Below, piece by piece: positions 14,977 to 38,705 of a stretch of 39,144 nucleotides of DNA (positions within the stretch are counted from its first letter, which is position 1; every line of letters begins with the position of its first letter). Location: positions 1 through 39,144 of the forward strand of contig NZ_WVIE01000034.1 of NCBI RefSeq assembly GCF_010091945.1. The letters run 5' to 3'. The position numbers and the translations under genes are program-made. The notes under the pieces are model-generated. The model had not been told where the DNA came from and made no database searches. It saw only the letters and a program-made list of their open reading frames with translations. This DNA comes from Myxacorys almedinensis A (GTDB lineage: Bacteria; Cyanobacteriota; Cyanobacteriia; Leptolyngbyales; Leptolyngbyaceae).

Positions 14977-15006
14977 TTGTTTACTGACAAATTGTTTACT
15001 GACAAA
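14977..15006. repeat. perfect 15-bp tandem repeat upstream of the MBOAT gene
   Basis: TTGTTTACTGACAAA occurs twice, head to tail and without mismatch, ending 13 bp before the MBOAT start. Each copy with its flanking T is itself a dyad (TTTGT...ACAAA), so the pair could be a two-site operator. It also lies where the ribosome would bind, and no Shine-Dalgarno sequence is obvious there. Confidence 0.75.
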
Positions 15007-22400: not shown

Positions 22401-22895
22401 TTAACGGTTTTGAATTACAGGTCGCCCGTTTGCTGACACCGCTGTAATTGTTAGATTGTAGGCAACAATTCCCGATAACCCGGCACCGCCAGAATCCATA
22501 ATGCGAACAAAGCCATATCTCGACCTCATATTTCTATAGATCACCTCCTCGGTTTGCTTGCCTTCGTTGATCGAGATTTTTTTTGTGTCTCCTCCCGCCA
22601 ATTTTCCGTCCAGGTTGCTGTCCTCCAAAACCTCCAGATCGATGTCTCCGTTCACCGTGAGTGTTGCTTTCACATTTTGTCCGGGAGAAAGTTCAAAGCG
22701 AAACACATCCTCATCTCGATTACCTGTGATTTGTCCAGAAACTCTGATAGGAACAGACGACACTCTACCAATGTTTTGAGGGTTTCTCGTCCCGTTTTGC
22801 TCTCGCTCTTGAATGCCGTGGGCGGGTGCTGCCACAAAAAGCACACCTAACGCAGAAATAGCTGCCAGGCTGGCTGCAACATATTGACGTTTCAT
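22401..22895 (-). CDS. small exported protein with PPC-like domain
   Basis: The 164-aa protein has a clear signal peptide (MKRQYVAASLAAISALGVLF, cleavage probably after APAHG). Its mature part resembles a bacterial pre-peptidase C-terminal domain: VSGQITGNRDEDVFRFELSP, GQNVKATLTVNGDIDLEVLE, DSNLDGKLAGGD and a final YGFVRIMDSGGAGLSG strand. PPC domains are usually parts of secreted proteases; this one stands alone. A GGAGATTACAAACC leader precedes the ATG and is nearly identical to that of two other loci here. The export route is likely Sec to the periplasm. The function is unknown. Confidence 0.7.
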   Translation of the reverse strand: MKRQYVAASLAAISALGVLFVAAPAHGIQEREQNGTRNPQNIGRVSSVPIRVSGQITGNRDEDVFRFELSPGQNVKATLTVNGDIDLEVLEDSNLDGKLAGGDTKKISINEGKQTEEVIYRNMRSRYGFVRIMDSGGAGLSGIVAYNLTITAVSANGRPVIQNR

Positions 22896-23104: not shown

Positions 23105-23686
23105 TTATTTTCCAAGGCATTCGATTTGGAGTAATCGATTAGAACCCAGTCGTGCCCGAATTAAGGTAGAGCGGTTGCCACATCGAGAACGTTCAGGTGT
23201 CCAGCCGTCCTTTGCCGATGAGCCAATTTTTTTGACAGCGCCAAGACAATTTTTGACAATATCACTGCCTTTTTTGCCGCCCTTGTCGTTCTCATCTCCT
23301 CCAAAAATAACTCCTATGCCGTCAACCACACACACTCCGGCTTTGGCGAAGTCTATATCGGGACGCCAGGTGCCAGGGTCAAAAATGTTGCCAGTGGTTG
23401 AATGACACCACCAGCGAATGTAACCACTGCCTGTAAGACCACCCCCTCCAGTCTTTACCCTAAAAGGATTAGACCAAGGGGTTTGCCCATTCGCATCTCT
23501 GGTCAGCAACACGGTTCCAGGGGTCATCGGTTGAGCATTGTAGGAAGGAACAATCGCCACCTCTGAACTACACCTATCTGTCATGACTTCTCCGGCAGAA
23601 GCAGGCGAGGCAGTTAACAAAATAGCGGTTGACACAATAGAGAAAGTAGTAGCTGCTAAATTGATCGCAAACATTTGACGTTTCAT
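23105..23686 (-). CDS. exported hypothetical protein, MKRQ leader family
   Basis: The 193-aa protein starts MKRQMFAINLAATTFSIVST with a signal peptide likely cleaved after SPASA. The mature part has six or so cysteines (DRCSS, WWCHS, GVCVVDG, NCLGAV, SRCGN, IECLG), a Gly-rich central stretch (VKTGGGGLTGSGYIRWW) and a basic C-terminus. I do not recognise a family. The start at 23686 is set by the signal peptide and by the MKRQ leader shared with 22401-22895; the frame is open 21 codons further. The even cysteine number fits disulphides in the periplasm. Confidence 0.65.
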   Translation of the reverse strand: MKRQMFAINLAATTFSIVSTAILLTASPASAGEVMTDRCSSEVAIVPSYNAQPMTPGTVLLTRDANGQTPWSNPFRVKTGGGGLTGSGYIRWWCHSTTGNIFDPGTWRPDIDFAKAGVCVVDGIGVIFGGDENDKGGKKGSDIVKNCLGAVKKIGSSAKDGWTPERSRCGNRSTLIRARLGSNRLLQIECLGK

Positions 23687-23767
23687 GATTTGTAGTTCCT
23701 TTGCGTTGAGAAATTGATTGTGATTTACACGGGATGCCAAGTCATTCACAGAGATGTCGTTGAGGTT

Positions 23768-23956
23768 TCATGATGGTTTCTCCTGAGCATCTTTTAGCGA
23801 TCGCTCTTGGGGTTGCTCAGACAGGGGTTGCTCAGACAGGGGTTGCTCAGGCAATGGCTTTACTTCAACAGCGATCGCAAATTGGCTGAGGTCAAAGACA
23901 AGTGAATCCTGGCGAACACGGGGATACCGTGCTGCTAATGCACAAAGTTGGCACAT
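23768..23956 (-). CDS. possible small ORF downstream of the GNAT gene
   Basis: A 62-codon minus-strand frame begins 14 bp after the acetyltransferase stop (MCQLCALAARYPRVRQDSLV, then FDLSQFAIAVEVKPLPEQPL). Its second half encodes the pentapeptide PLSEQ from a 15-bp tandem repeat. A repeat unit of five whole codons is compatible with coding, but there is no Shine-Dalgarno sequence and no recognised family. Confidence 0.3.
   Translation of the reverse strand: MCQLCALAARYPRVRQDSLVFDLSQFAIAVEVKPLPEQPLSEQPLSEQPQERSLKDAQEKPS
23809..23853. repeat. 15-bp tandem repeat, three copies
   Basis: GGGGTTGCTCAGACA occurs at 23809-23823 and 23824-23838, with a third copy at 23839-23853 that differs at one base (GGCA instead of GACA). 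On the minus strand it encodes repeated Leu-Ser-Glu-Gln-Pro in the small ORF there. Confidence 0.85.
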
Positions 23957-23970
23957 ACGGTTTTCTGGGT

Positions 23971-24612
23971 TTAGGCTTGAACGGGAGCGGTCATGAGGAG
24001 GATATCGCCGGTGTAATGGATCAGCGGATGAGGAACCACTTTGGCGCGATCCACAATCTCAAATCCATGACGCTGATAAAGCCTCAAGGCATCTGTATTT
24101 TGTTCAAAGCAGAGTAGGCTCAAGTCTGACAGTCCTCGTTCTGCCGCTTGTTGATGGGCGATCGACAGTAACTCTGTGCCAATCCCTTGTCCACGAAACT
24201 CTGGAAACACCGCTAGGGCGCAGATATACCAGGTTCCGGGCGCTTCTAAACTGTAGGGAGCCAACACGTCTGCTTCAGGCGAATCTACTGAACTAGTGGA
24301 CGGCGGCACTTCAGGTGTTTCAGATGCCATCAGATCTTCAATTCCGGCGGCTGGAAACGTCAACATCATTCCAACCGGGTTGCCTCTACATTCTGCAATG
24401 ACACAATTTTTGTAGCTGAAGAGACTCTCTGCATTTGCGTAGCGTTTTGCCCCAATCTCAAGCGGTGTCAGCCCTGGATATTGAGAACTTAACGTCTTCC
24501 AAATGTAGTCTGAAACGCCATCTGATGCAGTTTGAAACAGTTGGGCAAGGGTAGAGCAATCAGCAAGCGTAGCGGCTCGAAACACTGTTTTTACTGGCAT
24601 GATATTCTTCAT
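23971..24612 (-). CDS. GNAT-family N-acetyltransferase
   Basis: The 213-aa protein has the GNAT acetyl-CoA motif, VFPEFRGQGIGTELLSIAHQ, where RGQGIG is the pyrophosphate-binding R/Q-xx-G-x-G/A. A C-terminal LLCFEQNTDALRLYQRHGFE motif B follows. The N-terminal half has VFRAATLADCSTLAQLFQTA. It transfers an acetyl group to an amine whose identity cannot be told. The start at 24612 has AAAGGAGC 7 nt upstream. It begins only 12 nt after the methyltransferase stop, so it is the distal gene of the regulator, DUF4242, methyltransferase, GNAT run. Confidence 0.9.
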   Translation of the reverse strand: MKNIMPVKTVFRAATLADCSTLAQLFQTASDGVSDYIWKTLSSQYPGLTPLEIGAKRYANAESLFSYKNCVIAECRGNPVGMMLTFPAAGIEDLMASETPEVPPSTSSVDSPEADVLAPYSLEAPGTWYICALAVFPEFRGQGIGTELLSIAHQQAAERGLSDLSLLCFEQNTDALRLYQRHGFEIVDRAKVVPHPLIHYTGDILLMTAPVQA

Positions 24613-24624
24613 TGCATTGCTCCT

Positions 24625-25695
24625 TTATTTATGCACAATGTAGTAATCGTTTTGGAAATCGTGGGCTAGCTGTTTGATTTCGACTTGCTTAAACCCTGCT
24701 TCAGCTAACATTTGCAGCGCTTTTTCTTGTCCCCACATCGCTCCCAGTCCCATGCCGCCGTATGCCAGCGAAACCGTCATACAATGCATACAGGAAATGG
24801 TGTAGAGCAATGGCCCAACTGGGTGATCTAGGTTGCCCCCTACATCAGTTGTGGCGCGGATATCTTGCATCAAATAAACGCCATCTGGGCGCAGTGCTTT
24901 GTAGATGTTTTGCAACACTGCATCGGGTTTTGCCTGATCGTGAATGGCATCGAAAGTGGTGATGAAATCGTAGCGATCGCGCTCCTCCAACGTTGCCGCG
25001 TCTTTGACTTGAAACTGAATATTGCTCAGTTTTCGGAGTTGGGCTTCGGTAGTGGCAGTTGCGATCGCTTCTCCCGAAAAGTCGTAGCCGGTAAATCGGC
25101 TGTTTGGGAAGGCGTCAGCCAATTGGTTGAGCGCTCGCCCACTGCCACAGCCTATATCCAACACCTCAATGCCTTGCTGCAACGATTCTGTGATTCCAGG
25201 AATTAGCGGCAGCACATGATCGAACAATGCAGAGACCGTGGTTTGACCGCTATCTTCTGCCATCACTGCATGAAAGCGTTTGAACTCGGAATAGGGCACC
25301 CCACCTCCGTGGTAAAAGCAGTCGATAATTTGCTCTTCGACCGTTCCCAAGAGCGGGATAAATTGGGTAAAGGGAGCAATGTTGTCAGAAACGGCATTCC
25401 GGCTTAGAGATGCAACATGTTCCGCAGGTAGAACATAGGTCTTGTCGTGTGGGTCATAGTTCACCACGCGACCGGTGACCATTGTGCCGAGCCATTCCCG
25501 CACATAGCGTTCGTTGAGTCCGGCGGCATTGGCAATTTGCTCGCTGGTAGAGGGCGGCAATTCTGCCATTGTGTCAAACAGTTCGGTGCGGTGCCCGATC
25601 GATGTCATCAGAGCAATCGCGGCACTGTTGAGTACATCTAGCATTTGTTGGGCAAAGGCTTCAGCTTTGGTTACATCAAATGTTTGGGTTGTCAT
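24625..25695 (-). CDS. SAM-dependent methyltransferase with N-terminal winged helix
   Basis: The 356-aa protein has an N-terminal helical/winged-helix part (LFDTMAELPPSTSEQIANAA, then NERYVREWLGTMVTGRVVNY), as in small-molecule O-methyltransferases. The class I methyltransferase core follows, with motif I VLDIGCGSGRALNQLADAFP, YDFITTFDAIHDQAKPDAVL and LRPGGVYLM-like LRPDGVYLMQDIRATTD. It probably methylates a small molecule. Similar winged-helix methyltransferases occur in bacteria without known substrate. The start at 25695 has TAGGAGA upstream. An 11-bp direct repeat lies 70-92 bp before the start, a likely control site. Confidence 0.9.
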   Translation of the reverse strand: MTTQTFDVTKAEAFAQQMLDVLNSAAIALMTSIGHRTELFDTMAELPPSTSEQIANAAGLNERYVREWLGTMVTGRVVNYDPHDKTYVLPAEHVASLSRNAVSDNIAPFTQFIPLLGTVEEQIIDCFYHGGGVPYSEFKRFHAVMAEDSGQTTVSALFDHVLPLIPGITESLQQGIEVLDIGCGSGRALNQLADAFPNSRFTGYDFSGEAIATATTEAQLRKLSNIQFQVKDAATLEERDRYDFITTFDAIHDQAKPDAVLQNIYKALRPDGVYLMQDIRATTDVGGNLDHPVGPLLYTISCMHCMTVSLAYGGMGLGAMWGQEKALQMLAEAGFKQVEIKQLAHDFQNDYYIVHK

Positions 25696-25764
25696 GGTTT
25701 TTTTCTCCTAAGTTACTGATGCAGACTCTGCTTGTTGCATCTGAACTTAAGTTAGCGATCGCAG

Positions 25765-25797
25765 CGTTCCCAAACCGTTCCCAAACCGTTTCTAGTT
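25765..25797 (-). promoter_or_regulatory. 11-bp-period direct repeat, candidate SARP operator
   Basis: On the plus strand CGTTCCCAAAC occurs at 25765-25775 and again at 25776-25786, followed by a partial copy, CGTTTCTAGTT. Read on the minus strand this is GTTTGGGAACG twice, upstream of the methyltransferase gene. Ten bases beyond the repeat lies TAACTT, a possible -10 box. Actinobacterial SARP regulators bind direct repeats with 11-bp spacing just upstream of -10, and a SARP/BTAD-type regulator gene lies in the same run of genes. Confidence 0.5.
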
Positions 25798-25810: not shown

Positions 25811-26356
25811 CTAGAGCCGAGTTGGATTGATTAAAACTTGGGCAGACCAAACGAGAGCACAGGGAATCTCTAATTTGTGCTGGGCGTCCTGAATTGGCGT
25901 TATGTCAGGTGCATTCAGTTCATAAATCACTTTTGTGTGATCGAGCGATCGATAAGATTGCAGCCATTCAATGCCCCATGCTGCACAGTGGTGCAAAAAT
26001 CTGTGGCTGAGTTCGTTCCAGTCTGTTTCGCTGAGGGGGGGATAGGTTGCCTCCACGACATGCCGCACCGTTAAATCTCGTAAATTTTGCTGAGGTTGCG
26101 CCGCTTCTCGCCTAATCCGATCTCCAGCCCAGATTGGGCGAGAGGGCAACCCAAGTCTGCGATAAGACTCCCGTACAGACTCAGCATCGGGCGCATCAAA
26201 CGTACAAATCATCCGATAGCGATCGAGGGATAACAAAGAATAGTGCCAGGTTATATTTCGGGCTTCAAAACAAGGCAACACTTTCTGATTGGCATCATAC
26301 AGATATTCATCGGTCAAGGGCTGTTCGGCAGCGGTTTCAACAATAACGAGAGACAT
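25811..26356 (-). CDS. DUF4242-like protein, two tandem copies of the domain
   Basis: The 181-aa protein has two similar ferredoxin-like halves. The first is residues 1 to about 85 (LVIVETAAEQPLTDEYLYDA, DRYRMICTFDAPDAESVRES). The second is about 92-175 (VRHVVEATYPPLSETDWNEL, LDHTKVIYELNAPDITPIQD). Each ends in a proline- or valine-bearing IWAGDRI / LVWSAQVL strand. The pattern matches DUF4242, small proteins reported to bind nickel in some members and of unknown function in most. It lies between the regulator gene (39-bp gap) and the methyltransferase gene (115-bp gap, with the direct repeat). A sensor or metal-binding role is only a guess. Confidence 0.65.
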   Translation of the reverse strand: MSLVIVETAAEQPLTDEYLYDANQKVLPCFEARNITWHYSLLSLDRYRMICTFDAPDAESVRESYRRLGLPSRPIWAGDRIRREAAQPQQNLRDLTVRHVVEATYPPLSETDWNELSHRFLHHCAAWGIEWLQSYRSLDHTKVIYELNAPDITPIQDAQHKLEIPCALVWSAQVLINPTRL

Positions 26357-26395: not shown

Positions 26396-29300
26396 TCACG
26401 GGTCTGAAGGATTATGGAATGTGACGGAAATAGCTCGCTGTATCTGTTGAGCAACGCGATCAAGAGCGGTTTGAGCGCGGGTACTGAGCACATGGTGATC
26501 AATTTGGCTCTGTAGGGCTTTAAACTGTGCGATCGCTCGTTCGTGTTCCTCTAATTCTAAAATAGCTTGAATAAACATTGCCCAAGCTAAAGCAGTCTCG
26601 CTGGGATGGTTCATCATTTGAGCCGCTTGTAAGGCAGCTTCGGCTCGACCTGCCGCCATCTCAAACCGTTGGTGTTCTAGATCAACTTCGGCAGATCCAA
26701 TCCCAACATAAGCCAGCATTCGTTTAATATCTATTTGTTTTAGCCTAGCGATCGCGTCTTCTAAAACAACCTCGGAGCCAGGTTGCTGAAGCTTGTAATT
26801 GACCAGTGCTGTCAGTGCGGCTGTTATCGCGCTTTCACTACCTTCGCCTTTGATCTTCGCTGCCATAATTGCCGCTTCTTGACAGTAGGACAATGCCGCG
26901 ATCGCATCGCCAGCCGCCAATTCTGTCATGATTAGGTAGGTCAGAGAATTACATTCACGCCAGTGATCTTGCTCAACTTGCGCCAGCCGCCATGACTGCT
27001 GTAGGAGGGTTCGGGCTGCCTCATAGCGATTATTGTGCAGATGAATACCGCCTAACCCAATGTAAATATCACCAAGTTCTAAGCCAACCCTGTCAGCCAG
27101 CGATTGTGCCTCTAGCAGCAAGGCTTCTGCCCGAATCAGGTCTTGCCCCAATTCTGCCAGACAGGAGCCGCTAAACGCCAACAGTCGCGCTGCTGTTACA
27201 GGGCTAGCGGCTCGACCCACCTCAATAGCTCGCAATGAGTGATGATGCACATCAATAAAGTTGCTTTGGTTAAAAGACAAAACCCCCAATGACTCCAGCC
27301 CGATCGCTTCATCGTCTTTCAAGCCCAACCGACTTGCATCACTGACCAATCGCTGGATCTCAGTTTCCAACTGCACCGCGCGATCGCTCGTCACCCCTGC
27401 GATCGCACAGATTCGCAGCAATCCCAACTGCCAGTGAATTCGAGTCCGTTCATCCAATCGTTGACAGTGCTGGATTCCTCGTTGCGCTACTGTTGCTGCC
27501 TCTGCATAGGCAAATAATTTGAGGCACCGTTCTGCCGCTAGCAAGGCAGTAGAGGCAGCCAAGAAATGATCGCCGCCTAGGGAAGCGTGATAGGCAATAT
27601 CACCCGCCAAGGCATTATCTGAGGCGTTGTCTGACGTAGAGATCTGATTGAGCTTGTGAGCAATTTGCAAATGTACCAAATGGCGGCGCGGTTCTGAAAG
27701 CTGCCGATACACCACTTGACGCACAATATCATGCGCAAAATCGTATCCCATCTCATTGCCAACAGATGTACTAGGACGGATAATGCTTTGTCGCTCAAGC
27801 TGTTCGATGGCGGTTAGCAAGTGGGGCAGAGGGCGGTCTGCTACCTGAGCCACCATGGTGGGGTTAAAACTCCGCCCCAATGCGGCAGCCCAGGGAAGAA
27901 ACTCGCGGGCAGAGTGGTCTAGTTGCTGCAAGCGATCGCCAATCAACGCTTCCAGATCATTGGCATGAGCAGACTGATTGTGTGACACCTTTTGTGACAC
28001 CGCACGGGCAACTTCTAGCGCAAACAGGGGATTTCCTCCACTGTCAATAAACACCCGATCAACGACTTCTAGAGACAAATCTGACGCATTGCTAGGTTTG
28101 ATACTGCGAATCAGTTCAGCCGTTTTTCCCCGGTCGAAGGGCTGCAATTCAAGCATTCTTAAGCGCTGCTCTCGCCTGAGAGCCTGCACCACCCGCGAGA
28201 TTGCCCCATTTTGCTCAAGTTCCCCAGAACGAGCCGTACAGGCAAATCGCACTGGTGAGTGACTCAGTAAGCGAATGGCATAGTGCAGCAACGCGGATGA
28301 GGCTTCATCAATCCACTGAATGTCATCTAGAATCACAACGATGGGATTTTGATGGGCCCATTCAACCAACAGTTGCACTACTGCATCAAACAAGTGGCTG
28401 CGATCGGGCGCGGCGATCGCAGGTTGCCCCATCTCTGGAAGCAGAAAGCCTAGCTCTATCGGAATGTTGACCGAGGGTGGAATTGCCAGCGATCGCAAAG
28501 CATCAATCCAGATGCCATAGGGTCGCACCATTTCTGCTGCAAACCCGCGCCCCCAGATTGCCGATGGCATCGCTTCTCGGAGTTCCTCTAGCAATCGGGT
28601 TTTGCCAATTCCAGGTTCGCCCAGCACCAGCAACACTTCTGATACCGCACCACTAGAGATCAAACTGATCCACTGCTGAATCAGGTTCCATTCCGATTCA
28701 CGTCCTACTAAAGGACATTTTGAGCGCAAGGGCTGCCGCGACAACAATGGATGGGGACGAGCACTAGTAGAAAATTGAGCAGTAGATGTGTGGTCAGGCA
28801 ACTCGTCTTCTAGCAACAAGTGTTCATACAGTTTCCGAGTAGTAGGGCTAGGGTCAACGCCTAACTCTTCGCGTAGCACTGTCATGCATCGGTGGTAAAC
28901 CTGAAGGGCATTGGCGCGATCGCCGCTCAACGCATGCAACTGCATCAAAGAGCCATAGGCTGCTTCATTGAGTGGATCGACTCGTAACAGTTGTTGGGCA
29001 TACCGACAGGCAGCACTGTAGTCTTTTTGGGTTTGCAATTGCTGAATTAGCCAGGTATAAACGCGAATACAGGCTTGATGCAACCGCTCTTGTTCTGGCT
29101 CAATCCACTCGTCGTAACAATTGGGTAGGAGTTTTCCTTGATAAAGCGCAACCGCTCGTTCTAACGCAGCTTGGACGGCAGCTAGCTCGGATAGTTGTGC
29201 AGTTTCGGCACCTGCGGATGCTTCGCAACAATGAGCAGATCTGATCGCTTGTTCAAACTCTACAACATCCACGGTTGCCGGTGCATCGTGCCGCCAACGA

Positions 29301-29575
29301 AGTGCTTTGGAGTCAATGGCAATAAATTGCTCGACATTCGGTAAAATCCGGCGTAGATAATGAATCGCTCGCCTCAAGTTTGTCCGCGCTTGGGAGTCGT
29401 TGGTGTCTGCCCAAAAGAGAAATGCCAAATGCTGTCGAGACTGGGGGGCGTGCTGATTCAACACCAGATAGGTCAGCAGAGATTGAAGTCGCTCTGTTAT
29501 CTCACCTGTCAGTGATTTGTCACCATACGATAGGTCAAAGCCACCCAGAAGGTTAAGCTGTAGAAGTTGCGGCAC
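26396..29575 (-). CDS. SARP/BTAD-type regulator with AAA ATPase and TPR-like repeats
   Basis: The 1059-aa protein starts with a winged-helix segment (LLQLNLLGGFDLSYGDKSLT; residues 1-100). A bacterial transcriptional activation domain follows at about 125-255 (YSAACRYAQQLLRVDPLNEA, then ANALQVYHRCMTVLREELGV). A STAND-like AAA ATPase comes next, with Walker A GEPGIGKT at 319-326 and Walker B VVILDDIQWIDEASS. The C-terminal 450 residues are TPR-like helices. This AfsR-like order fits an ATP-switch regulator. The start is a GTG at 29575 with GGAG about 12 nt upstream. It is the first gene of a minus-strand run with the DUF4242, methyltransferase and GNAT genes. The inducing signal is unknown. 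Confidence 0.9.
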   Translation of the reverse strand: MPQLLQLNLLGGFDLSYGDKSLTGEITERLQSLLTYLVLNQHAPQSRQHLAFLFWADTNDSQARTNLRRAIHYLRRILPNVEQFIAIDSKALRWRHDAPATVDVVEFEQAIRSAHCCEASAGAETAQLSELAAVQAALERAVALYQGKLLPNCYDEWIEPEQERLHQACIRVYTWLIQQLQTQKDYSAACRYAQQLLRVDPLNEAAYGSLMQLHALSGDRANALQVYHRCMTVLREELGVDPSPTTRKLYEHLLLEDELPDHTSTAQFSTSARPHPLLSRQPLRSKCPLVGRESEWNLIQQWISLISSGAVSEVLLVLGEPGIGKTRLLEELREAMPSAIWGRGFAAEMVRPYGIWIDALRSLAIPPSVNIPIELGFLLPEMGQPAIAAPDRSHLFDAVVQLLVEWAHQNPIVVILDDIQWIDEASSALLHYAIRLLSHSPVRFACTARSGELEQNGAISRVVQALRREQRLRMLELQPFDRGKTAELIRSIKPSNASDLSLEVVDRVFIDSGGNPLFALEVARAVSQKVSHNQSAHANDLEALIGDRLQQLDHSAREFLPWAAALGRSFNPTMVAQVADRPLPHLLTAIEQLERQSIIRPSTSVGNEMGYDFAHDIVRQVVYRQLSEPRRHLVHLQIAHKLNQISTSDNASDNALAGDIAYHASLGGDHFLAASTALLAAERCLKLFAYAEAATVAQRGIQHCQRLDERTRIHWQLGLLRICAIAGVTSDRAVQLETEIQRLVSDASRLGLKDDEAIGLESLGVLSFNQSNFIDVHHHSLRAIEVGRAASPVTAARLLAFSGSCLAELGQDLIRAEALLLEAQSLADRVGLELGDIYIGLGGIHLHNNRYEAARTLLQQSWRLAQVEQDHWRECNSLTYLIMTELAAGDAIAALSYCQEAAIMAAKIKGEGSESAITAALTALVNYKLQQPGSEVVLEDAIARLKQIDIKRMLAYVGIGSAEVDLEHQRFEMAAGRAEAALQAAQMMNHPSETALAWAMFIQAILELEEHERAIAQFKALQSQIDHHVLSTRAQTALDRVAQQIQRAISVTFHNPSDP

Positions 29576-30024: not shown

Positions 30025-31146
30025 TCAACGCAAGTCCAACCAAACCTCTGCTGGAATCTCTTCTAACTCAGGAGAAAGCGGAAACGTTCCGGGCGGAAAG
30101 TCTTTGGTCACTAATTGTTCTAGCAAAATGAGTGCCTCCGCAAACAGAAATTCAACAATTTCATCAGGAACACTACTGCCAATAAAGTTAACAGGGTAGC
30201 CCTGATTTACCAGGTAGAGAGTACGATTTGGGAGGTAGTAAGCTTGCACATGGGGATGAACAAACTCAGTCCATTGTGCCTGATTATGCAAGTAGTCTAA
30301 ATCAATCTCAATCTTTTTTGAACTGGCACTGACTAGAATGGTGCGATCGCTTAAGCGATCAATCACCTCCGGCGTAATCGAACATACTCCCGATGCACCA
30401 ATCACGATCGAAGCTCGATCAAACGTGTCCAACTCATCTTGCAACAAGAAGCCATCCAACTTCAAGGCTACCTTTTTGATCACATCAACATCGTGTGCCG
30501 CCACCGTCACATTTTTTGCTCGTAGACTGCGGCACACGCCACGCCCAACCCAGCCATAGCCGTTGACAAGCGCTAAGCGCCCTGCGATCGCATAGCCAAT
30601 TTCACGCAAAATCGTATCTAGAGACAGCACTACCGCATCACCAACATAATCTCCTTCAATTTCCTTTAGTCTCGTCTCAGCACAGTTCAACTGAGGAACC
30701 AGAAGATCATCAATACGCTGCGCTGCCCATACTCCTTGCTTCGTAATCTCAACACTCCCTCGAACAACGTTGGAATAGTCTCGATAGCAATTGTGGAAAC
30801 AAGTAATTGCATAGCCGCCTACCTCGTGTAAAAGCAGTTGATGACCTGTTTGAGAGCACCGTTCAAGACTGTTCTTCAACTCAATTTCAATAGTTTCTTC
30901 TAATTCCTGGAATCCTGGTGTCAACACTTGGATTCCGCATTCCTCCAACGCTTCCACAACGTGTTTTTTACCAGAATAGCTAATGCCAATCACCACATCA
31001 ATCGGAAAAAACTGGTGGGAAATCAGCAGCAACCGCAGAGTATCTTCATAAAGGTGCTGTACGACAAACTGGCGGCAGTTAGGATGAGGTTTGATGCCTA
31101 CTCGCCGAGCGACCTCACCAAGAAAGTCTGGATGGAAATTATTCAT
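30025..31146 (-). CDS. divergent S-adenosylhomocysteine hydrolase-like protein
   Basis: The 373-aa protein resembles SAH hydrolase in its NAD domain: AIAGRLALVNGYGWVGRGVC with GYGxVGRG, then TVAAHDVDVIKKVALKLDGF, VIGASGVCSITPEVIDRLSD and ILVSASSKKIEIDLDYL. Upstream, LLLHEVGGYAI lies where the true enzyme has its DDGG motif. The substrate region is much changed and the protein is about 60-90 aa shorter than a genuine SahH. The C-terminal Lys-Tyr tail that completes the NAD site in SahH is not seen. It may be a NAD-binding relative with another substrate. It lies 221 bp downstream of a methyltransferase gene on the same strand, a suggestive pairing. Confidence 0.75.
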   Translation of the reverse strand: MNNFHPDFLGEVARRVGIKPHPNCRQFVVQHLYEDTLRLLLISHQFFPIDVVIGISYSGKKHVVEALEECGIQVLTPGFQELEETIEIELKNSLERCSQTGHQLLLHEVGGYAITCFHNCYRDYSNVVRGSVEITKQGVWAAQRIDDLLVPQLNCAETRLKEIEGDYVGDAVVLSLDTILREIGYAIAGRLALVNGYGWVGRGVCRSLRAKNVTVAAHDVDVIKKVALKLDGFLLQDELDTFDRASIVIGASGVCSITPEVIDRLSDRTILVSASSKKIEIDLDYLHNQAQWTEFVHPHVQAYYLPNRTLYLVNQGYPVNFIGSSVPDEIVEFLFAEALILLEQLVTKDFPPGTFPLSPELEEIPAEVWLDLR

Positions 31147-31367: not shown

Positions 31368-32156
31368 TTAGAACTGCGAATCAGAACGAGGCACTTCGCA
31401 GACAAACAAAACATCGTTAGTCCACTGCCTAAAAAATGGTAGTCCACCGAATAAACGGCTGAGATGCCAATCTACAACGCGCAGAAATGGCTGTTCTAGG
31501 GTCTTCTCGCGCAGTTGCTTAAACAGACGCATGAGCGAGGGAGTCTTTTCATAGCGACGATGAAGCATCACCAGGTAAGGAATGACCGAAATAAATCCAA
31601 CACCGTGGCTTCTGTGAACCTTCAGTTCGCACCTGAGCAGGTCATACCACTCGTCTTGACGTAACCGAATCTTATGTTCTTCGTAATGCAAATGCTTGAA
31701 TTTAAATCGATCTAACCGATACATCTGCGGAACGGTAATAATCACAACACCGCCGGGTTCCAGAATTGAACAACACGTTTGAAGTATCTGGAGAATGTCA
31801 ATTTCAAGTCCATCAAGATGTTCCAAAACATCCAGTAGAAAAATGACATTGGGCTGCCACGGAAGTTTTGCAATGATTTGATTAGACTCGCGAATATCTG
31901 CCAGAATATCGGGCGAAAACGGGGACTCATAGTCCACACCACAATACTGAAAATTGATCCCTAGATCAGATAGGTAACGCAGTGCAATTTTGTCGGCGCA
32001 TCCAAGGTCGAGAATGCGGGGATGCAGAATACCAGCCTCTTTCAAGGCTTTGCTAATCAGCCGAAACTTGACATAGTTGAACAAGTTTTCATCTTTACCC
32101 GATAGAAGGCGATCGACTAGATAGGAAGAATGAACGGTTTTGGTAGACAGCACCAT
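31368..32156 (-). CDS. class I SAM-dependent methyltransferase
   Basis: The 262-aa protein has a methyltransferase core: motif I RILDLGCADKIALRYLSDLG, an acidic motif II in YCGVDYESPFSPDILADIRE, NVIFLLDVLEHLDGLEIDIL and LEPGGVVIITVPQ. The C-terminal part is basic and hydrophobic (LHRRYEKTPSLMRLFKQLRE), as in methyltransferases tied to glycan or lipid synthesis. I start it at the ATG at 32156, because AGGTGA lies 8 nt upstream; a GTG at 32168 is within that ribosome site. The substrate is unknown. The SAH-hydrolase-like gene follows it on the same strand. Confidence 0.85.
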   Translation of the reverse strand: MVLSTKTVHSSYLVDRLLSGKDENLFNYVKFRLISKALKEAGILHPRILDLGCADKIALRYLSDLGINFQYCGVDYESPFSPDILADIRESNQIIAKLPWQPNVIFLLDVLEHLDGLEIDILQILQTCCSILEPGGVVIITVPQMYRLDRFKFKHLHYEEHKIRLRQDEWYDLLRCELKVHRSHGVGFISVIPYLVMLHRRYEKTPSLMRLFKQLREKTLEQPFLRVVDWHLSRLFGGLPFFRQWTNDVLFVCEVPRSDSQF

Positions 32157-33134
32157 GATGTTTTTCACCTGTATGATTTTGCTTCACGAATGCAACTTGA
32201 AGCACTTCAGAAGCTTGGCAACCCCCGAATTCCTTACACGTCTTTCTTACGCATCCAACAGAAACGTGTAGGGAAATATTGATTTTGCGAAAACTATGTC
32301 TGAAATGCGGCTTGCGAACGTACTTAGTCTTGCGGAGCCTACTTGGTCTTACGGAGGCGCTTACACGGAGATCCTAAAATTTAGATTAAGAAAACCGAGA
32401 ACACCGAATTGTTCGATAGAATAGCCTGCTTCATCTGCTAGCCCATAGCGAAATTTTTCGGAGAGTACCATTCGCGTAAATTTACTGAAAATCTCAGCAA
32501 ATCAAGGCTTTGTTCTGAAAAAAATTCAGTATTACGTAGGTTTGCTGCGAATAGTTGTAGAAAAGGGTTATGTTTTAAGTGCTACTCAAAGACATCAAAA
32601 AACTCAGTTTCATTACTGCTATCTATAGAAGATGAAATATTCTGCGAAAACAAGCAAACTCAAGTCTGTAGAGATTGCATGTAAAATCTTAGCAATGTCG
32701 ATCTGTTTTATAAAAGACCTACGAAACTGCTTAACCTCGGACAAAAAACTTGCTTTCTAGTTCTAAACCGCTGAGGTAGCCGCTTATAAGCAAATTTACT
32801 GAACAACCTTGCTCTGTTGGTTCAGCTTTATGGATTTGCATCTGTATAATTACGGCTTAGGCAAAATACTGACTAGTCGCACCAAACCTTACTGAAAGAA
32901 TATTGCTTAAGTTACAGAACGTTCCTAAATCCGGTTGCCAGAATGCTGGCGCAACTGCCCTGTTAACGCAAAACAGTAAGAGTGATGGAAACATGTGATT
33001 AGCATCGACTAGCTGCCCAAGCCCAAAGACAGATTTAAATTATGCTTTCAAAAAACAATAGCCACCTGATGGAGAACCTCATGAAGTTGGGATAACTAAC
33101 GCAGTCGGCTAGTTGAGCTAATCATCAAGGGACA
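32157..33134. other. 978-bp AT-rich region without a recognisable gene
   Basis: Between divergent genes lies nearly 1 kb with no protein-like ORF in any frame and no tRNA. It holds an imperfect 19-bp tandem duplication at 32321-32358 (TACTTAGTCTTGCGGAGCC, then TACTTGGTCTTACGGAGGC). It may carry long 5' UTRs, a small RNA or decayed DNA. I could not support any of these. Confidence 0.5.
32321..32358. repeat. imperfect 19-bp tandem duplication
   Basis: TACTTAGTCTTGCGGAGCC (32321-32339) is followed at once by TACTTGGTCTTACGGAGGC (32340-32358), with three or so differences. It lies in the long non-coding gap and may be a duplicated protein-binding site. Confidence 0.6.
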
Positions 33135-36100
33135 ATGACAAAGCAAATTCAGATGCAGGGATATCAGATTCGAGAAACGATCTACGACGGTTCCAGAACA
33201 GTCGTCTATCGCGGTATCCAAGAGTCGAATCAACAGCCTGTGGTCATCAAGCTGCTCAAAAATCTCTATCCCAGCTTTTCCGAACTGTTGCAGTTCAAAA
33301 ATCAATACATCCTGACACAACAGCTTGACTTGCCTGGGGTAGTTCGTCCTTACAGCCTGGAGCCTTACCAGAATAGTCTTGCTCTGGTAATGGAGGACTT
33401 TGGAGGAATTTCGTTAAAAGAGTATAGAACCGTCTGGAGCGTAGACGGCAAAGAGCCAGAGAGCCAAAAATTTCTAGCGGAATTTTTGCGAATTGCGATC
33501 GCGCTCACCGATATTCTAAATGGGCTGTATTGCGATCGCATCATCCACAAAGACATCAAACCTGCCAATATTTTGATCAATCCCACCACTGGGCAAGTCA
33601 AACTGATTGACTTTAGCGTGGCATCTCGTCTGCCCCGTGAAACGCAAACCCTCACCAACCCGAACGTTTTAGAAGGCACTCTGGCATATCTCTCGCCCGA
33701 ACAAACTGGACGCATGAACCGGGGCATTGACTACCGCACAGATTTCTACTCTCTAGGAATAACCTGCTTTGAACTGCTGACAGGTCAGCTACCGTTTAAC
33801 TCGGATGATCCAATGGAGTTAGTGCATTGTCATATTGCTAAACAGCCTCCAACCGTTGATCAACTCAATGCCTCAATTCCGCTAATGGTTTCAGCCATTG
33901 TTAGCAAACTAATGTCAAAAAATGCGGAAGATCGCTATCAGAGCGCTCTAGGCTTAAAGCGTGATCTGGAGATCTGCTTACACCAGTGGCAAGACAACTG
34001 CACAATTGCTCCCTTTTCATTGGGACAGCGAGACATCTCAAATCACTTCATCATTCCCGAAAAACTTTACGGTCGAGAGCCAGAAGTTACCGACTTGTTA
34101 GCCGCCTTTGAGCGAGTGACACAGAGCCAAGAGCCAAACCTGTTGCACTCTTCACTTCTACCTTCTTTGTCTTCAAGCAGCGAGATCATCCTTGTCGCTG
34201 GCTTCTCTGGCGTTGGCAAGACTGCTGTGGTCAACGAGGTTCATAAGCCCATTGTGCAGCAACGGGGCTACTTCATCAAAGGCAAGTTTGACCAGTTTCA
34301 GCGCGATATTCCTCTTTTCGCCTTTGTGCAGGCATTTCGCAATCTGGCAGGGCAATTGCTCACAGAAAGTGATGCCCAAGTGGAACGGTGGAAACGCAAG
34401 ATCTTAAAGGCGTTGGGTGAAAATGCTCAAATCATCATTGAGGTCATCCCAGAACTAGAGCGGCTCATTGGTAAGCAACCCCCTGCCGCAGAACTGACGG
34501 GTAGTGCAGTGCAAAACCGTTTCAATGTGCAGTTCCAAAAGTTCATCCACGTCTTTACCGCACCCAACCATCCCCTAGTGATGTTTCTCGATGACTTGCA
34601 GTGGGCAGATGCAGCATCGCTCAAGCTGATGCAACTGTTGATGAGTGATGGCGAGAGCCACGATCTACTGCTGATTGGAGCGTATCGAGATAACGAAGTT
34701 TCCCCTAGCCATCCGCTAATGTTGACCGTGGACGAGATTCGGGCAACCGGAACTATAGTCAATACGATCGCTCTAGCACCTCTGACTTCAGCAGATATCA
34801 ATCAACTGGTCGCAGATGCCCTCAATTGTACCCCAGCAGCAGCCCACCCCCTGAGCGAACTGATTTATCGCAAAACCAATGGCAATCCCTTCTTTACGAC
34901 TCAGTTTCTTAAATCTCTGCATGAAGACGGGCTGATTGTCTTCGACTTTAAGACTGGTAAGTGGCAATCCAACCTGGAGCAAATTGAGATTTTGTCACTA
35001 GATGATGACGTGATAGAGTTTATGCGCCTTCAGTTGCAGAAGCTGCCCAATGCCACTCAAAACGTCCTCAAGTTAGCTGCCTGTATTGGCAACCAGTTTG
35101 ATCTTGCCGCCCTATCTGTTGTGTATCAGCGATCGCTACACGAAACCGCAACAGATCTGTGGGCTGCCCTGCAAGAGGGCTTTCTCGTGCCGACTGGGGA
35201 TGAGTACAAACTGTTTCACGATGGAAGCGATGGGGAACTGGTCAATGGGGCTCAGGACACATTTAGCCAATTACCCAAGTACAAATTTTTCCACGATCGC
35301 GTTCAACAGGCAGCCTATGTGCTCATTCCCGATGATCAAAAACAGGCGACTCATTTACGGATTGGTCAACTGCTGCTAAATCAGAATGATGAGGACAACC
35401 GAGAAGAGAGACTGTTTGAAATTGTCAATCAACTAAATTTAGGTGCAGCGTTGATTAGCGACTTGACCCAACGGCAGGAGTTAGTGCAACTCAATCTACA
35501 GGCAGGTCGCAAAGCAGTTGCGGCAGCAGCGTATAGCGCAGCATCTGGCTATTTCGGTGCGGGGCGAAGCTTGCTGCCAATAGATCCTTGGGAACAAGCC
35601 TATGAGCTAACGCTGATGGTGTATTCAGAAGGGGTGGAGGTGGCTTACCTCAATGGTGAACTTGATCAAATGGATCAACTGGCGGAACAGGTGTTGCAGA
35701 AAGCCAGGACATTGCTGGATCAGATTCAGGTGTATGAGGTCAAGATTCAAGCCAGCATTGCTCAAAATCAATTATCAGAAGCATTGGCACTAGCTCTAAC
35801 GGTGTTGCGTCTGTTGGCGATTGACTTGCCAAAGGCTCCTACTCCATCCGATATTGAAAATGCCCTGCAACACATTCAAGCGACGTTAGCGGATCGAGAG
35901 ATTGATCAGCTAATTGAGCTACCCATCATGCAACTGCCTGAGAAACTGGCAGCCATGCGGATTTTAGCGACGCTGATTTCAATCACGTTTGTGTGTTGCC
36001 CGTCTTTGTTGCCCTTGGTGATCTGTGAGCAGGTAAAGCTATCTGTGAAGTATGGCAATTCGTCTTGGTCTGCATTTACCTATGCAAATTATGGGCTTTT

Positions 36101-38705
36101 GTTGTCTACCACAGGCCACACTGAAGCCGGATATCGTTTTGGGCAACTGGCAATTTGCTTACTCAATCAACTCGATGCCCGAAGCACTAAGGCAAAAACC
36201 TTCACGATCGTCTATGGCATGACTACCCATTGGCGACAAGCTCTGGCAACCTCGCTAGATCCCCTCATGGAGGCGTATTACAGTGGGTTGGAAACTGGAG
36301 ATATTGAGTATGCAGCGTACTGCATCTTGCATCACAACGAGTACGCCTACTTCTGCGGACGAGAACTCAACAAACTGGCAGAACAACTTGCTACGTGTAG
36401 TGATGCGCTGACCCAAATCAAGCAAATTAACACCCTGACCTACCACGAGATTTATCGACAGGCAGTCTTGAATTTGCTCGAATCGCCGGAGAACCCGATC
36501 GACCTGGCAGGTGAAGCGTATGATGAAACGCGATTGATTTTGCCAAGCTCTGAAGGATCGCTGCCCCTCCATCCACACGCAGATGACCGATATGCCCTGT
36601 ATCAGGTCTATCTCAATAAGCTGATTTTGAGCTACCTATTTGGAGACGCTCGGCAAGCAGTTCATTTTGCGGAACTAGCAGAGCAATATATAGATGGTGT
36701 GTCTGGCTTATACTTCGTCCCGGTATTTTACTTCTATGATTCGCTCGCAAAATTAGCAATTTATGCAACGGGAACCGAAACCGAACAGACGACAATTTTA
36801 GACAAGGTGCAGAGTAACCAGAAGAAAATATTGCAATGGGCAGACTCTGCACCCATGAATTTTCTACACAAGTTTCACCTGATTGAAGCAGAACGGCATC
36901 GAATCTTGGGACAATTCACGATCGCAATGGAGCATTATGATCATGCGATCGCTGGAGCATCTGCCCATGCATTCCGTCAAGAAGAAGCCCTCGCTTATGA
37001 ACTGGCAGGTCGGTTTTACTTGGAGTGGGGCAAAGCCAAAATTGCTCAGGTCTATCTGGTCGATGCTTATTATGCCTATGTTCGCTGGGGCGCAAGAACC
37101 AAGGTAAACCACCTAGAGCAAAAATATCCCATGTTGCTCAGCAGCCTGTCACAACCCGAACGCACCCTACTGCAACAAGGCACCATCTCATCTACCACCT
37201 CTTCCGGCTTAAGTAGCAGTTTAGACAGTTCCAAAGCGTTGGATCTAACTACGGTGATCAAAGCTTCTCAAGCCCTTTCGGGTGAAATTCAACTCGATCA
37301 ATTGTTAGCCAGCGTGATGCGGGTGGTCGTCGAGAATGCCGGCGCACAGAAGAGTGTGCTGATGTTGCGCCAAGCAAAACAGTGGGTCGTTGTAGCCCAG
37401 GCTGGTGGTGAGGCTGAGACAACAACGCGGTTACCCATAGGGGAGACTGCTGCACACTCACTACCAGTTGAGTCTAGCGAGGTGATCCCACAATCGATTC
37501 TCAACTATGTGACTCGCACCTCTGAAACGCTGGTAATCGCCGATGCCCGGACGGAACCGCCCTTCTCGATCGATCCTTACATCCTGGCACAGCAGCCCAA
37601 AAGCGTATTGTGTACGCCCATTCGTAACCGAGCAGAACTGATTGGGGTTCTGTATTTGGAAAACAACTTGACGCTTGGGGCATTTACTAGCGATCGCATC
37701 GAAGTCCTACAACTCCTAATGGCACAAGCAGCGATCTCTCTGCAAAACGCCCTACTCTACAACACCTTAGAACAAAAAGTTGAGCACCGCACTCAGGAGT
37801 TGCACGAAAAAAATCAACGGCTTTCAGAGACATTAGCAGAATTGCAGCGTGCTCAGACTCAGTTGATTCAAACTGAAAAGATGTCTAGCTTGGGGCAAAT
37901 GGTAGCGGGAGTAGCGCATGAAATTAACAATCCGGTCAATTTTATCCACGGCAATCTGATTTACGTTCAGGAGTATGCTCAAGATTTGATCCACGTTTTG
38001 CAGATCTATCAAAAGCACTCCATCCATTTGGCTCCCGACGTGCAAGCAGAAGCAAGCGACATTGATCTAGACTTTTTGCAAAAAGACCTCCCTAAGACCC
38101 TTCAGTCTATGCGAGTAGGCACCGATCGGATTCGCCAAATTGTGCTGTCGCTGCGAAACTTCTCACGCATGGATGAAGCCGAGTTTAAGCGCGTTGACCT
38201 TCATGAAGGAATTGATAGCACTCTGATGATCTTGCAGCACCGCCTAGAGGCTACACTTGAACGCCCGGAAATTGAGGTGATCAAAGACTATGGTCAGTTA
38301 CCCCAAGTGGAATGCTATCCCGGACAACTCAATCAAGTAGTGATGAATATTCTGACAAATGCGATCGATGCGTTAGAGGAAGCAAACACTAAGCGAACGT
38401 ATGAGCACATCAAAAATAATCCTAATCGGATCATTATTCGCACATCAGTTAGCACCTCTCAGTCTGTGAAAATTACAATTTTAGACAACGGCTCTGGGAT
38501 GCCAGAGCTAGTTAAACAACGAATCTTTGACCCGTTCTTTACGACGAAAACTGTTGGCAAGGGGACAGGAATGGGGATGCCCATCAGTTACCAAATTGTG
38601 ACTGAGAAACACGGTGGAAAATTGGAATGTTTTTCTACACCTGGCGAAGCAACCGAGTTTGTGATTCAGATTCCTATCCACCAAAAAGTTTGTGCGGTTG
38701 TTTAA
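33135..38705 (+). CDS. fused Ser/Thr kinase, AAA ATPase, GAF and histidine kinase
   Basis: The 1856-aa protein has a Ser/Thr kinase at about 8-270 (Lys39 in VVIKLL, His138-Lys-Asp in [15 protein letters not shown] at 159 instead of DFG). A STAND-like AAA ATPase follows, with Walker A GFSGVGKT at 356-363 and Walker [11 protein letters not shown] at 483-492. A long helical TPR-like region runs to about 1350. Next are a GAF domain at about 1370-1530, a coiled coil at 1545-1590, and a histidine kinase with His1595 in [15 protein letters not shown]-box [17 protein letters not shown] at 1784 and GKGTGMGM at 1808. This trifunctional layout is a known cyanobacterial family. The glycine loop is weak ([11 protein letters not shown]). 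It is a signal-transduction protein with unknown stimulus. Confidence 0.95.

Follow-up and report, generated by a model that had tools for sequence, protein, structure and literature searches.

A Conserved 11-bp Direct Repeat before a Cyanobacterial Methyltransferase Gene as a Candidate SARP Operator

SARPs have been studied as switches of Streptomyces antibiotic clusters, and the last repeat of a SARP operator lies ~8 bp from the -10 hexamer. In the passages of PMC10936776 that describe it, the afs box of AfsR from Streptomyces coelicolor consists of two 11-bp repeats, the upstream one lying over the -35 position (-40 to -30), and AfsR residues R92 and T88 contact T-38 and G-36, which are bases 3 and 5 of that repeat. 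The operator of the SARP-LAL protein PimR is given, in the consulted part of PMC5930380, as three heptamers with 4-bp spacers and the consensus CGGCAAG, with no -35 overlap. A further paper treats AfsR-like proteins of Streptomyces, Deinococcus, and Mycobacterium, and no cyanobacterial operator appears among its retrieved passages (PMC1262709). Among the open-literature matches listed for SARP, AfsR, or BTAD together with cyanobacteria, none describes a cyanobacterial SARP operator, which is weak evidence of absence.

We analyzed a window of 39,144 nucleotides from Myxacorys almedinensis A, whose genome is assembled as 4.96 Mb in 85 contigs. We propose, with a probability of about 0.86, that a short tandem repeat in this window serves as operator for the large SARP whose gene lies upstream of it, and that together with a TAACTT hexamer it forms an internal SARP-activated promoter for a methyltransferase gene and probably for the GNAT acetyltransferase gene as well. 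SARP binding, activation, the start site, and the signal are what we infer; the case for binding is built from association and covariation across genomes.

The repeat and its operon

The 11-bp unit CGTTCCCAAAC occurs twice without a gap (25765-25775 and 25776-25786) and is followed by CGTT at 25787-25790, and TRF reports 25765-25790 as 2.4 copies of period 11 with 100% matches. The coordinates and TRF thus bear out the gapless repeat and partial third copy of the preliminary description. It had also placed the repeat between the DUF4242 and methyltransferase genes, where we find it in a 115-bp gap that runs from the DUF4242 stop (25811) to the methyltransferase ATG (25695), and had noted a minus-strand TAACTT 10 bp beyond, which does lie at 25754-25749 with exactly 10 bp (25755-25764) in between. 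The tandem unit and the nearby hexamer stand, but the extent and the spacing need revision. On the coding strand the order is AAACGGT-TTGG-GAACGGT-TTGG-GAACGCT-GCGATCGC-TAACTT, and the functional register is not two copies and a part but three minus-strand heptamers that reach beyond the original unit (Table 1). Because the third heptamer extends into the 10-bp gap, 8 bp are left to the predicted -10.

Table 1. Coordinates of the operon genes and of the predicted promoter parts in the window
Feature	Position	Strand	Remark
Large SARP: OmpR-type DNA-binding domain, BTAD, AAA_16/NOD, long C-terminal half	26396..29575	-	Proposed activator
DUF4242/SCO4226-like protein (PF14026)	25811..26356	-	Between SARP and array in several relatives
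Putative operator, three heptamers: AAACGGT (25785-25791), GAACGGT (25774-25780), GAACGCT (25763-25769)	25763..25791	-	Exact 11-bp spacing; kept with the operon
ATCGC box	25755..25759	-	Directly 5' of the -10; inside GCGATCGC here
Predicted -10 hexamer TAACTT	25749..25754	-	TACCTT in some relatives; 8 bp past the last heptamer
Conserved TTCAGATGCA	25736..25745	-	Kept though outside the search pattern
Predicted 5'-terminal stem-loop GATGCA...TGCATC of the transcript	25718..25741	-	Begins at the predicted 5' end
Methyltransferase with Rv2258c-like wHTH domain (PF21320)	24625..25695	-	Predicted first gene of the regulated unit
GNAT acetyltransferase	23971..24612	-	Directly 3' of the methyltransferase; same order in L026, L028, L030

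The array has the direct heptamer repeats at 11-bp spacing that mark a SARP operator and, again as in such operators, the repeats lie over the -35 position with the last one close to the predicted -10. By the features that can be judged from sequence, the repeat would belong with the SARP operators. A TAACTT hexamer without a -35 fits an activator-dependent promoter, and its position predicts a transcription start at A25742 or G25741. The GNAT gene is probably cotranscribed with the methyltransferase gene. The octamer GCGATCGC around the ATCGC box, which we take to be HIP1-like, was considered as the signal and rejected, because relatives keep ATCGC alone.

The proposed activator combines an N-terminal OmpR-type DNA-binding domain with a BTAD, the combination by which the SARP family is defined. 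The BTAD match is strong (4.7e-26) and AAA_16 is clear; Trans_reg_C scores 21.8 bits, below its 26.2 cut-off, and a TPR_10 match in the C-terminal half also falls below its cut-off. An AlphaFold2 model of residues 1-262 (pLDDT 90.7) provides the fold match, its best six PDB matches comprising AfsR initiation complexes (8k60, 8hvr) and EmbR (2ff4, 2fez) at E values of 6e-12 to 3.6e-11. Against the AfsR equivalog model NF053617 the protein scores 46.4 bits, with a cut-off of 1430. The regulator is a SARP, and it is not AfsR itself. Elsewhere in the window, a Pkinase-AAA_16-GAF-HATPase protein (33135-38705) has an AAA_16 region like that of the SARP (20% identity, E 1.4e-7). The stretch 30025-31146, upstream of the SARP gene, matches only the NAD-binding domain of S-adenosylhomocysteine hydrolase and adjoins another methyltransferase gene (31368-32168).

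The full motif GAACGSTNNNNGAACGSTNNNATCGCTAACTT, allowing ≤3 mismatches, occurs once in the source genome, at this site. No array with a PWM score above 8 lies at the small secreted-protein genes 23105-23749 and 22401-22895, and a PWM scan, a free scan, and inspection of the sequence found none upstream of the SARP gene of the window, so that SARP autoregulation was not seen. The predicted regulon in this genome is a single unit, the methyltransferase gene with, probably, the GNAT gene.

Conservation with the operon and with SARP genes

The window was simulated 60 times with a first-order Markov model, and none of the simulated sequences contained a perfect self-match run of at least 15 at periods 8-20. 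The actual sequence contains four, including three at period 15, and rarity inside the window is therefore a weak argument. Short tandem repeats are nothing unusual in this DNA; the reading has to be tested by conservation, and it is the comparative evidence that carries weight. Among the other repeats, the 15-bp unit GGGGTTGCTCAGACA is present in 2.8 perfect copies at 23809-23850, between the GNAT gene and a small secreted-protein gene, and further 15-bp repeats lie at 2768-2804 and 14977-15006.

A search for related loci with the methyltransferase protein yielded 53, the nearest named relatives being cyanobacterial. We scored as an array three GAACGNT units spaced by 11 bp and followed after 8 bp by TAnnnT, with ≤5 mismatches in 18 positions; one lies upstream of the methyltransferase at 11 of 19 cyanobacterial loci found by protein and at 0 of 27 others, and the best reversed or complemented control in the same test gave 8. 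The preliminary description had staked its reading on conservation of the repeat with the operon, and the array is indeed kept with it. The order SARP-DUF4242-methyltransferase recurs at L024, L025, L031, and L032 (DUF4242 is partial in L032, and the SARP is in pieces in L025 and L032), and the order SARP-methyltransferase at L030; near L027 and L028 the SARP is reduced to fragments, and at L029 the SARP gene is divergent.

For 12 of the 19 cyanobacterial loci, the genome was searched for a SARP at E 1e-20. All five loci in SARP-less genomes (L035, L036, L037, L038, L040) are without an array, and L026 and L033 have both SARP and array. At L027 the array is accompanied by a SARP fragment, and at L071 by a partial SARP containing a stop and by a broken methyltransferase. 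The remaining three, L034, L039, and L058, have a SARP in the genome, yet no array at this methyltransferase copy; in L034 and L058 (the latter the same place as L137), an array lies 3' of SARP-DUF4242, before a PPC-domain gene. At L027 (G096, G399), the SARP and DUF4242 genes have decayed to fragments and the array before the methyltransferase gene survives, which makes the locus a natural example of a lost regulator.

Across 388 genomes of the class, the motif at ≤3 mismatches occurs at 31 places in 15 genomes, and the reversed pattern occurs once (G355). With a threshold of E 1e-60, a SARP is encoded by 45 of the 388 genomes and by 14 of the 15 with the motif (Fisher p 1.5e-13). The association holds within family f24 (10 of 11 motif genomes with a SARP, p 1.1e-4) and within family f1 (4 of 4, p 6e-4), kinship being handled by this family split only, with family counts made by hand. 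In G096, the fifteenth motif genome, all that is left of a SARP is a 69-residue remnant ~1.25 kb upstream of the site. No site at ≤3 mismatches is found in 31 of the 45 SARP-bearing genomes, and variant heptamers account for only part of these. That the repeat is a functionless product of slippage is hardly credible in light of these data. Other short tandem repeats do occur in the window, some longer, such as the 15-bp-period repeat near the GNAT gene, but this array has been maintained across widely diverged loci at an unchanged distance from the -10, and its reversed motif is nearly absent (1 versus 31); conservation already contradicts slippage.

The genes behind the sites are varied. A methyltransferase with PF21320 follows 15 of the 31 (judged by eye, L028 included), one of these, L135, being a short truncated frame. 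Three sites (L110, L128, L132) precede RTX or PPC proteins, and two more (L124, L133) have such matches that miss the curated cut-off, with a small secreted-protein frame intervening at L133. Others precede an alpha/beta hydrolase (L125), an MFS protein (L130), a DUF6585 protein (L109), small secreted proteins, or genes without a Pfam match (e.g., L126 and L127). Because the methyltransferase carries a winged HTH domain of its own and heads so many of the sites, it could be supposed to bind the array and regulate itself. We regard such autoregulation as highly improbable, for arrays also stand before unrelated genes (PPC, RTX, MFS, hydrolase), and methyltransferase orthologues at 70-75% identity in SARP-less genomes are without an array.

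Where the neighbouring SARP is divergent, and the array in some cases weak, the cargo comprises GNAT with homocysteine S-methyltransferase (L144 by Pfam, L147 by eye), acyl-CoA dehydrogenase (L149), and genes with no Pfam match (L153, L156). The SARP reading frames at L161-L163 and L167-L169 are about 2,100-2,200 aa long; the two scanned, L163 and L169, contain many WD40 repeats, and these long frames apparently join a SARP to a WD40 region plus a second ATPase half. At L161, L162, L163, and L168, the array is divergent from the SARP gene.

Site anatomy and covariation with the regulator

We derived the anatomy of the site from 33 distinct sites. As these were chosen by a pattern, only the columns outside it are independent evidence; ATCGC is part of the pattern, and its conservation is thus partly by selection, although it is also present at loci found by protein alone. 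The consensus unit is GGAACGST. In the heptamer at -37 to -31, outside the pattern, C is present in 33 of 33 sites, the following G in 32, and T in 32, and the linker TTnG and a weaker fourth unit are likewise kept outside it. So is TTCAGATGCA, at +9 to +18 counted from the first T of TAACTT. Conservation is low upstream of -48 and beyond about +30. The conserved parts downstream of the -10 are additional to the model of the preliminary description, and the start site would lie inside this block.

A stem of at least 5 bp between the first bases of the conserved block and the following 40 bases can be formed at 19 of the 33 sites and is lacking at 14; when the 3' part was shuffled in 300 trials, sites with such a stem averaged 4.0 and never exceeded 9 of 33. 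Loop lengths range from 4 to 18, which fits RNA better than a protein-binding palindrome. The 5'-end hairpin is a predicted, additional, and unexplained part of the site. At L037 and L038, which have no SARP, an ATGCA...TGCAT-like inverted repeat was seen by eye before the methyltransferase gene.

A PWM from the 33 sites was run over the window and 40 SARP neighbourhoods (469,682 bases, cut-off 8). Matches near SARPs score 11.8-90.9 and the best reversed sequence -20.8, several of the scanned loci having supplied training sites and the divergent ones not. Among the weaker matches, GATCGST units lie next to the SARP of G007 and, in mixed arrays, next to those of G013 and G188; a free scan found GGACGRT beside the SARPs of G041 and G266-C160. 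A GGATCG triplet search returned G007 (three rows, two arrays), the mixed arrays of G013 and G188, three unclear matches in G060, and two control matches, and at 3 mismatches it also picks up GAACG arrays (G220, G126, and one in G188). Of 13 genomes scanned for GGAYGATT arrays, G041, G266, and G016 have them, with 0 control matches, and G017, G167, and G316 do not, despite an acidic recognition residue in the SARP. G266 encodes two SARPs with different arrays beside them, one GAACG and one GGAYG.

In a phmmer alignment, AfsR R92 corresponds to Y73 and T88 to R69 of the SARP in the window. We aligned 36 SARPs and kept 30 loci with a usable array, dropping six. Y, H, N, Q, or L at the R92 position goes with GAACG, G or R with GATCG, and E or D (or R together with R at the T88 position) with GGACG. 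Heptamer type agrees with this residue at 26 of the 30 loci, L143, L147, L158, and L167 disagreeing; the permutation p for heptamer class is descriptive only, because we defined the residue classes with the results in view, counted weak arrays, and used loci that are related to one another. The altered heptamers GATCG and GGACG beside some divergent SARPs would thus appear to track the R92-aligned residue loosely. In the register GGAACGST, which is our choice, the changes fall at bases 3 and 4 and the C at base 5 is constant. In seven SARP neighbourhoods (L151, L154, L159, L160, L164, L166, L169), no array clearly better than control was found. A scan of gap lengths gave 28 versus 7 at 8 bp and also 32 versus 9 at 13 bp, so that 8 bp is not singled out; the scan is not sharp because the arrays are long. 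Conservation with the operon, association with SARPs across genomes, and variant heptamers beside divergent SARPs all support the reading of the preliminary description, a SARP operator at an internal promoter.

SARP and PhoB DNA-binding domains have a common OmpR-type fold, which counts in favor of the rival that another OmpR/PhoB-family regulator, such as SphR of the phosphate response, binds the array. Its boxes also have an 11-bp period, and in the passages of PMC1906773 on them, Pho boxes are 8-bp repeats with 3-bp linkers, those of Escherichia coli lying 10 bp upstream of the -10. We consider this rival very unlikely. The cyanobacterial Pho consensus in the same passages, CTTAACCT, is unlike GGAACGST in either orientation, the sites follow SARP presence and many adjoin SARP genes, and the two SARPs of G266 have different arrays.

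Proposed mechanism and comparison with known systems

By analogy with AfsR, SARP protomers would sit side by side on one face of the DNA, one per 11-bp repeat, over the missing -35, and would contact sigma region 4 and core subunits so as to hold RNA polymerase at the poor -10. This step would be gated by the ATPase (NOD) half, whose presence suggests nucleotide-gated control as in AfsR. Sequence cannot separate a binding site from its effect, and the site lies inside an operon, so the SARP might instead bind the array and repress; repression strikes us as very unlikely, since repeats over the -35 with a poor -10 are the layout of an AfsR-type activator and the window's own SARP gene has no array found upstream.

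More tentatively, and we think it doubtful as a whole, the SARP, DUF4242, and the array of three to four (once five) repeats could form a portable, specificity-switching cyanobacterial module with exchangeable cargo (methyltransferase, GNAT with homocysteine methyltransferase, acyl-CoA dehydrogenase, and PPC/RTX secreted proteins), in which the SARP would bind the long arrays as a NOD-driven oligomer instead of a dimer and the 5'-end stem-loop would add RNA-level control. Returning to the SARP-operator reading, a control circuit of antibiotic-making soil bacteria appears, from its sequence signature, to be at work in this cyanobacterium too. If so, direct tests could be made of the predicted binding code, of the regulon, and of specificity variants that occur naturally, and inducible promoters for cyanobacterial engineering are possible.

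The cyanobacterial Pho box of SphR resembles the array in its 11-bp period and at least three repeats, but in the passages cited (PMC1906773) it serves a response regulator and phosphate targets, and no CTTAACCT repeats that would mark a Pho box are found here. PimR, as far as the part of its description cited above goes, shares the three heptamers with 4-bp spacers and a SARP N-terminus on an ATPase half; its consensus CGGCAAG differs, and its operator does not overlap the -35. The best structural match, on the passages cited for it, is AfsR, also a large SARP with BTAD and ATPase half and with 11-bp direct repeats, the upstream one over the -35. From AfsR the present system differs in having three or more repeats rather than two and another repeat sequence, in R and Y where AfsR has T88 and R92, in its added conserved ATCGC and TTCAGATGCA, and in targets that, among those found here, are not antibiotic regulators. 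The proposed element is therefore of a known kind, a SARP operator, its heptamer spacing known from PimR and its -35 overlap from AfsR; what is new is the cyanobacterial lineage, the sequence code and its variants, the non-antibiotic cargo and targets, and the conserved 5' end.
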